From Thermomonas sp. XSG (GTDB lineage: Bacteria > Pseudomonadota > Gammaproteobacteria > Xanthomonadales > Xanthomonadaceae): a stretch of 64,000 nt of DNA. Below are positions 9,476-10,752 of this stretch, in pieces (position 1 is the stretch's first letter; each line of letters opens with the position of its first letter). A model generated the notes under the pieces. The model saw nothing but the letters and a program-made list of their open reading frames with translations. It ran no database searches and was not told the origin of the DNA. The position numbers and the translations under genes were made by a program. The stretch lies in NCBI RefSeq assembly GCF_014678725.1, contig NZ_CP061497.1, positions 124,001 to 188,000 on the forward strand. The letters are read 5' to 3'.

Positions 9476-9901
9476 TCAGCGCGCGTAGACGTCGGTCGCC
9501 GGGAAGAAGTAGGCGATCTCGATCGCGGCATTCTCCAGCGAATCGGAGCCGTGCACGGCATTGGCGTCGATGCTGTCGGCGAAGTCGGCGCGGATGGTGC
9601 CGGCAGCCGCTTCCTTCGGGTTGGTGGCGCCCATCAGGTCGCGGTTCTTCAGCACCGCGGCCTCGCCTTCCAGCACCTGCACCATCACCGGGCCGGAGAT
9701 CATGAACTCGACCAGCGCGCCGAAGAACGGACGCTCGCGGTGGACAGCGTAGAAGCCTTCGGCCTCGGCCTTGGACAGCTGCTTCATCTTCGCGGCGACG
9801 ACCTTCAGGCCGGCCTTTTCGAAGCGGGAATAGATTTCGCCGATGACGTTCTTGGCGACGGCATCGGGCTTGATGATCGAAAGGGTGCGCTCCAGCGCCA
9901 T
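9476..9901 (-). CDS. ndk: Nucleoside diphosphate kinase
   Basis: 141 residues, the standard length. It equilibrates nucleoside di- and triphosphates through a phosphohistidine at His117 (NAVHGSDS motif); [12 protein letters not shown] at the N-terminus is the family signature. The ATG at 9901 has a GGAGAG ribosome-binding site a few bases upstream and is preferred to an in-frame ATG ten codons earlier. It opens the long minus-strand run, with rlmN 9 bases downstream. Confidence 0.97.
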
Positions 9902-9957
9902 GGGAAAGCTCTCCGGTTGGCGGGCGTCCATGCCGGAATCGCCCGAGGATAACAGAA

Positions 9958-9981
9958 AAACCCGCGTACTGGCGCGGGTTT
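9958..9981 (-). terminator. Terminator-like hairpin in the ndk/psrA divergent region
   Basis: Stem AAACCCGCG/CGCGGGTTT with a 6-base loop. Read on the minus strand it is followed by further Ts (TTTTT in total), like an intrinsic terminator. It lies 57 bases before the ndk start, and no gene on either strand ends nearby. It could end a short leader or small RNA initiated near 10020-10080, or act as an attenuator for ndk. Confidence 0.55.
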
Positions 9982-10067
9982 GGCCGATATGGCTGCGGAC
10001 GATTCTACCTGATCGGCGCGCGCTTTTCGCGCTTCCGACGCGTCAGGCAAAGGCGGCGCACACACGA

Positions 10068-10096
10068 TTGACGTACGCCAGCGTACGGCGTACGCT
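10068..10096 (+). promoter_or_regulatory. Predicted promoter of the psrA-like/fadN/fadA operon
   Basis: TTGACG (10068-10073), a 17-base spacer and TACGCT (10091-10096), giving a predicted start near 10103 and a 5' leader of about 23 bases. An inverted repeat GTACGCC-n7-GGCGTAC (10073-10093) fills the spacer, and the PsrA-like operator begins at the last -10 base. Confidence 0.5.
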
Positions 10097-10111
10097 CAAA
10101 CAAGCGTTTGA
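10096..10111 (+). promoter_or_regulatory. PsrA-like operator (inverted repeat TCAAAC-n4-GTTTGA)
   Basis: TCAAACAAGCGTTTGA has 6-bp arms and a 4-base centre. It matches the pseudomonad PsrA consensus (C/G)AAAC-N2-4-GTTT(G/C) as I recall it. It overlaps the predicted -10 and start site, 15 bases before the regulator ATG, so binding would block transcription of the regulator and fad genes. Acyl-CoA-responsive autorepression is inferred. Confidence 0.6.
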
Positions 10112-10125
10112 CTCGAGGGTATCGC

Positions 10126-10752
10126 ATGGGGCTCCAGCACTTCTCGACCAAGGACCGCATCCTCTACGCGGCGGAGGAACTGTTCGCCCAGCAGGGCTTC
10201 GCCTCGACCTCGCTGCGCCAGGTCACCAGCCGCGCGGACGTCAACATCGCCGCGGTCAACTACCATTTCGGCAGCAAGGACAACCTGGTCAACGAGGTGT
10301 TCCGGCGGCGCATGGACGTGATGAGTTCGCAGCGGCTCGACGCCCTGGCCAAGGCGGTGGCCGCTGCGCCCGGCCAGCTGGAACCGATCTTGGCCGCCTT
10401 CGTGGAACCCGCGTTGGCGATGGCCCAGGACCGCCACGGCGGCGGCGCCTTCATCCGGGTGATCGCCCGCGCTTATGCCGAGAGCAACGACAGCCTGCGC
10501 AAGTTCCTGTCCGACCAGTACGGCCATGTCCTGCGCGAGTTCGCCAAAGCCATCGCGCCCTGCGTGCCCGCGCTGGGCAAGGAAGACCTGTACTGGCGTC
10601 TGGACTTCCTGTCCGGCGCGCTGACTTACGCGATGGCCGATTTCGGCCTGATCAAGCGCCCGGCCGGCGTGACCGAATCCACCCACCGCCAGCGCGCCGC
10701 CAAGGCCCTGATCCGATTCGCATCGGCCGGTTTCCACGCCGACGCCACCTGA
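10126..10752 (+). CDS. TetR-family regulator, PsrA-like (fatty-acid degradation repressor)
   Basis: 208 residues. The N-terminal TetR helix-turn-helix (RILYAAEELFAQQGF, then a TSLRQVTSRADVN segment) ends in AAVNYHFGSKDNLV, very like Pseudomonas PsrA, with a C-terminal ligand domain of matching layout (YAESNDSLRKFLSDQYGHVL; LYWRLDFLSGALTY). PsrA represses beta-oxidation genes and is released by long-chain acyl-CoA. The gene lies 21 bases before a beta-oxidation pair and has a PsrA-type operator in its own promoter. The ATG at 10126 is chosen over an upstream TTG because the latter falls inside the operator. Family and role are probable; the ligand is inferred. Confidence 0.85.
   Translation: MGLQHFSTKDRILYAAEELFAQQGFASTSLRQVTSRADVNIAAVNYHFGSKDNLVNEVFRRRMDVMSSQRLDALAKAVAAAPGQLEPILAAFVEPALAMAQDRHGGGAFIRVIARAYAESNDSLRKFLSDQYGHVLREFAKAIAPCVPALGKEDLYWRLDFLSGALTYAMADFGLIKRPAGVTESTHRQRAAKALIRFASAGFHADAT

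Follow-up and report, generated by a model that had tools for sequence, protein, structure and literature searches.

A PsrA-type palindrome as the probable autorepression operator of the psrA-fadN-fadA operon in Thermomonas sp. XSG and other Lysobacteraceae

Introduction

The window, by which we mean the whole stretch of 64,000 nucleotides of Thermomonas sp. XSG DNA analyzed here, contains a short palindrome directly upstream of a gene for a TetR-family regulator, which is followed by two genes of beta-oxidation (Table 1). This arrangement raises the question whether the palindrome is the operator by which the regulator controls its own operon, and which signal would relieve this control. The original prediction regarded the site as a PsrA-type operator and proposed acyl-CoA-controlled autorepression outside pseudomonads.

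The literature offers several points of comparison. For Pseudomonas PsrA, a review describes the motif G/CAAAC(N2-4)GTTTG/C (PMC13104628). The Pseudomonas regulator (P. aeruginosa PA3006) resembles the system considered here in its membership of the TetR family, its palindrome, its autorepression and its response to long-chain fatty acids, yet it is encoded by a stand-alone gene and governs a broad regulon, whereas the gene in the window heads a fad operon and a single promoter carries an exact site. Smlt2053-Smlt2051 of Stenotrophomonas maltophilia K279a shares with the window the gene order, the type of regulator and the class of motif near the start site. Smlt2053 binds a fragment of its own promoter in EMSA, and its deletion raises Smlt2052 and Smlt2051, i.e., it represses its own operon (Coves et al., 2023; PMC10304680). 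Free long-chain fatty acids (iso-C15, C16) as well as DSF release it, while C4 has no effect and C8 and C12 act at most partially, at millimolar levels. The EMSA probe was a promoter fragment and not an isolated site, and a second complex was seen; in the accessible part of the same paper, RNA-seq yields no other validated target. In Xanthomonas citri, XAC2014-XAC2012 is the same operon as that of the window, and XAC2014 was described by Teper et al. (2019; PMC6637906) as homologous to PsrA, with 36% identity.

Results

Regulator and Operon

The predicted order of regulator gene, fadN and fadA was borne out by open reading frames as well as by domain and profile matches. In the 790-aa protein the dehydrogenase domain precedes the hydratase domain, an order which we take to be FadN-type. 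The regulator matches both PF00440 and PF17939 above cut-off and is the only protein in the whole genome to match the latter. Its best match in the PDB is 2fbq (residues 7-212, E 1.9e-33), presumably PA3006/PsrA, relative to which the recognition helix is kept (VNIAAVNYHFGSK versus VNLAAVNYHFGSK). The hallmarks of a PsrA, namely the TetR DNA-binding and TetR_C_30 domains, full-length similarity and the recognition helix, are all present, and its own promoter has a site of the form G/CAAAC(N2-4)GTTTG/C close to the start site. With 157.3 bits (E 4.5e-46) against the Vibrio-type PsrA equivalog of NCBIfam (NF053516), the regulator falls under the 300-bit cut-off and is not assigned to that model. 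Upstream, ndk lies on the opposite strand, and a terminator-like site is found on the ndk strand between ndk and the psrA promoter.

Table 1. Features of the psrA-fadN-fadA locus, with positions counted in the window.
Feature	Position	Strand	Basis or remark
-35 element TTGACG	10068..10073	+	read from sequence; similar element in relatives
tentative second operator ACGTAC-N6-GTACGG	10071..10088	.	between -35 and -10; weak
perfect palindrome AGCGTAC-GGC-GTACGCT (AGCGTACGGCGTACGCT)	10080..10096	.	unique in genome
weak -10 element TACGCT	10091..10096	+	read from sequence; TA...T columns conserved in relatives
putative PsrA-type operator TCAAAC-AAGC-GTTTGA	10096..10111	.	pattern match and conservation
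probable ribosome-binding site GAGGG	10115..10119	+	read from sequence
psrA-like TetR regulator, 208 aa, TetR_N and TetR_C_30	10126..10752	+	domain and profile matches
fadN-type 3-hydroxyacyl-CoA dehydrogenase/enoyl-CoA hydratase, 790 aa	10774..13146	+	domain and profile matches
fadA-type acetyl-CoA C-acyltransferase (thiolase), 402 aa	13222..14430	+	domain and profile matches

Operator and Promoter

The palindrome is present exactly as predicted, TCAAACAAGCGTTTGA being a perfect 6-4-6 repeat. Its first base is the last base of the -10 element, it covers the expected start site and it ends 14 bp before the ATG of the regulator gene, in agreement with the predicted overlap with the -10 and start region. 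The designation of the promoter as good, on the other hand, is somewhat generous: the -35 element is good, the spacing is 17 bp and the geometry recurs in relatives, but the -10 element has only three of six consensus bases. Due to this weak -10 element, a consensus promoter scan of positions 9600-10400 listed no promoter.

Base composition leads one to expect 0.0004 exact matches to TCAAACN4GTTTGA in the window and 0.019 in the genome. Three are present in the 3.05-Mb genome, versus none for the reversed control pattern; the frequency of the palindrome is far above chance. The other two copies are found in two rRNA operons, at equivalent positions between tRNA and 23S (G000:C1:1067465-1067480 and 1218034-1218049). 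Both have the same 12 fixed bases, one of them is flanked by Rfam matches to SSU, two tRNAs and LSU, and they probably represent a hairpin of the precursor RNA. Such identical arms in both rRNA spacers lend some plausibility to the view that the promoter palindrome is likewise an mRNA hairpin, or a fortuitous repeat, and not a protein-binding site, and it would indeed fall partly in the transcribed leader. However, the site begins on the -10 element, so that most of its left arm precedes the likely start of the transcript.

With two of the three exact copies located in rRNA operons, just one is left at a gene promoter, and the regulator therefore looks local. A broad regulon as in Pseudomonas was not found in this genome, its exact sites being those at the psrA promoter and in the two rRNA spacers. 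When up to two mismatches are allowed, the number of matches is close to chance, both in the window (three including the exact one, a number reached by 5 of 100 shuffles) and genome-wide (32 versus 23 for the control). The sole one-mismatch site (G000:C1:2000383) was rejected as a sign of a wider regulon, as it lies just past the 3' end of a MerR-like open reading frame; it was also rejected as part of a tRNA gene, the locus being without an Rfam match.

Conservation Among Relatives

Relatives of the regulator were collected by a scan of genome contigs, and the best 80 of at least 550 found were kept; the closest genus-named relative among the matches listed is from Thermomonas (89% identity). 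Within these best 80, an exact operator is seen in 62 and a single mismatch in 14; the other four, three of them Arenimonas loci, have two mismatches. None of 378 random stretches of the same loci has fewer than two mismatches and one has two; the corresponding numbers for 400 doublet-shuffled upstream regions are none and three. Of the same 80, 76 have a TTGAC/ATGAC-like element 28-32 bp before the operator, 79 have fadN downstream in the same orientation (in the remaining one, L060, the contig ends) and 77 have a fadA match. The conservation of the 16-mer's arms upstream of orthologues next to fadN, on which the original prediction depended, is thus evident, although the species are related and the counts do not represent independent events.

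When the 76 promoters whose operator has no more than one mismatch are aligned, the flanks prove to have drifted, while the TTGAC/ATGAC element, the TA...T of the -10 element and the operator are clearly conserved, with the last T of the -10 element again being the first base of the operator. These promoters were picked by their operator, and the conservation of its columns consequently reflects that selection in part; the bases of the center (mostly AAGC or AATC) and a TT after the operator, which were not selected for, are conserved as well. The fixation of the arms and much of the center across relatives speaks against a hairpin, as do the commonest variants, which alter one arm only. In addition, the distance between operator and coding match varies widely among relatives, and nearly the same operator letters are kept in distant orthologues. 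An mRNA hairpin or a fortuitous repeat is hence an extremely improbable explanation of the promoter palindrome.

At least one exact site occurs in 54 of 79 further Lysobacteraceae genomes, versus a control match in one of the 79. Thirty loci were fetched from these exact matches, and 25 of them lie 25-83 bp upstream of a psrA-like gene. The regulator gene was then sought in the 25 genomes without an exact site and in one genome of the same genus. It is present in 25 of these 26, the remaining genome being 81% complete, and the best upstream site is exact in one, has one mismatch in 18, two in four and three in two. At the level of sequence, these data confirm a psrA-fadN-fadA operon with a near-invariant putative operator as a widespread trait of Lysobacteraceae.

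The other five fetched loci (L106, L117, L118, L125, L127) lie away from psrA. At L118 (positions 1501-1516, family genome G014) the exact PsrA-type site is located upstream of an alpha/beta-hydrolase (lipase-like) gene, a few bases from a TfmR-like dyad CCGTAC-N6-GTATGC, while L127 has unannotated open reading frames only. Two tfmR-fadE intergenic regions of the family (L191, L193) have one-mismatch sites beside fadE/tfmR, which hint at wider PsrA control in those two genomes.

Beyond the Family

A match to the regulator (E up to 1e-10) was found in 24 of 185 genomes of the class, three of which belong to Lysobacteraceae. Twelve outside loci (L134-L145) from other gammaproteobacterial families encode proteins with 36-52% local identity to the regulator and, in most cases, a nearly identical recognition helix. 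Their best upstream CAAAC-N2-4-GTTTG site has at most one mismatch in eight, two in three and four in one, with 2.75% of shuffles reaching at most one mismatch. The upstream region of L143, a distant orthologue, is without a recognizable site, and none of the twelve has fadN within the flanking sequence covered (about 1.5 kb or less). Weaker matches (L146-L156) are mixed, with a one-mismatch site in two and L150 lacking an alignment. The claim that the system extends outside pseudomonads is correct but not new: a published reconstruction places PsrA regulons in 76 genomes from 12 groups of proteobacteria (PMC5343134), and the Xanthomonas/Stenotrophomonas motif, which occurs in X. citri too, is already in print (PMC10304680), as stated in the accessible parts of both sources.

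TfmR and a Second Palindrome

The palindrome might alternatively be the operator of TfmR, another fatty-acid-responsive TetR repressor. In X. citri, TfmR is reported to bind the XAC2014/fadB1/fadA promoter, in vitro only and not by ChIP (PMC6637906), and the window genome contains a TfmR-like gene divergent from fadE (L180:1413-1991). Yet a different palindrome, CCATAC-N6-GTATGG, is conserved in many of 30 tfmR-fadE intergenic regions, and just two of the 30 have a PsrA-type site within one mismatch. Binding of the window's palindrome by TfmR in place of PsrA is very unlikely on these grounds.

The CCATAC-N6-GTATGG box is exact in 51 of 79 family genomes versus a control match in one of 79; among 30 fetched loci, 27 are at tfmR/fadE and three elsewhere. 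The sole exact copy in the window genome (G000:C1:2147808-2147825; L212:1501-1518) lies between fadE and the TfmR-like gene. Of three one-mismatch copies, one directly precedes a gene for an acyl-CoA dehydrogenase (L213), another a gene for a FadH/OYE-type reductase (L214), and the third is near unannotated open reading frames; with up to two mismatches, genome-wide matches are near chance (35 versus 31 for the control). As the box is found at tfmR/fadE and at a FadH-type gene, and TfmR of X. citri binds and represses fadE and fadH (PMC6637906), it is likely the TfmR operator. In their accessible parts, the main text of the 2024 TfmR paper (PMC11173191) does not use the words motif, binding site, footprint or palindrome, and the 2019 paper (PMC6637906) lacks "binding site" and has "palindrom" once, in a general statement.

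In the window, the dyad between the -35 and -10 elements is three mismatches away from this box, a level reached by about 1.5% of shuffles. Its core, CGTAC-N6-GTACG (10072-10087), is perfect and common to four relatives, but the form was defined after being seen and its shuffle rate of 0.0002 therefore overstates the case. Near the psrA operator, the box occurs with at most two mismatches in nine of the best 80 of at least 550 loci versus 0.06% of shuffles, mostly in the -35/-10 spacer; the nine belong to Stenotrophomonas, Pseudoxanthomonas, Thermomonas-like bacteria and Lysobacter. The box was rejected as an explanation for TfmR binding in X. citri, given that the Xanthomonas loci analyzed here have none with up to three mismatches near the psrA operator. 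The perfect palindrome AGCGTACGGCGTACGCT was rejected as a conserved operator too: it is within two mismatches in just 2 of the best 80 of at least 550 relatives and is not conserved past the closest ones. The dyad that overlaps it may be a degenerate TfmR box. A switch with two inputs, in which PsrA occupies the -10 and start region and a TfmR dimer the CGTAC-N6-GTACG dyad in the -35/-10 spacer, is conceivable, but we consider it doubtful.

The promoters of the S. maltophilia loci differ from that of the window in the operator center (AATC versus AAGC) and in the upstream half, where a TGCTGC-N3-GCAGCA-like dyad is found in place of GTAC repeats. In psrA promoters of Xanthomonas, Stenotrophomonas and Pseudoxanthomonas (for example L018, L048 and L053) this dyad adjoins the -35 element, 42-46 bp before the operator start. 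With up to two mismatches allowed, it is present in 35 of the best 80 of at least 550 loci versus about 0.7% of shuffles; it was not found in the window, and it may correspond to the additional inverted repeat noted in S. maltophilia.

Discussion

In this study, we propose that the palindrome is the operator of the TetR repressor encoded directly downstream, a PsrA orthologue of Lysobacteraceae, and that it mediates autorepression of psrA-fadN-fadA that is released by fatty acids. Conservation of the site and the experiments on the Stenotrophomonas orthologue make this reading highly probable. In the absence of ligand, a repressor dimer would sit on the -10 and start region and block its own operon. 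Free long-chain fatty acids, and probably also DSF-type signals, would make the repressor leave the DNA, so that the hydratase/dehydrogenase, the thiolase and the repressor itself would be made when fatty acids accumulate. Here we infer by analogy that the behavior of Smlt2053 also holds for the protein and the exact site of the window.

The original prediction thus stands with regard to the PsrA-type operator, the PsrA-like regulator and autorepression. Its choice of acyl-CoA as ligand finds no support, the releasing molecules demonstrated for the orthologue being free long-chain fatty acids (PMC10304680, accessible part). As both the motif and the mechanism have been published for close relatives, the locus in the window is a further member of a described system. 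It illustrates that the reach of a PsrA-type regulator may be local and need not be global.

If the switch with two inputs were real, the fadN-fadA step would be gated by two fatty-acid sensors that act independently and recognize different operators, and lineages would gain or lose the TfmR box. At the level of sequence, the likely TfmR operator makes it easier to ask how beta-oxidation may be divided between two such sensors, with fadE, another acyl-CoA dehydrogenase gene and a FadH-type gene on one side and fadN-fadA on the other. The family in which this division would apply has plant pathogens among its members and employs DSF, itself a fatty-acid signal.
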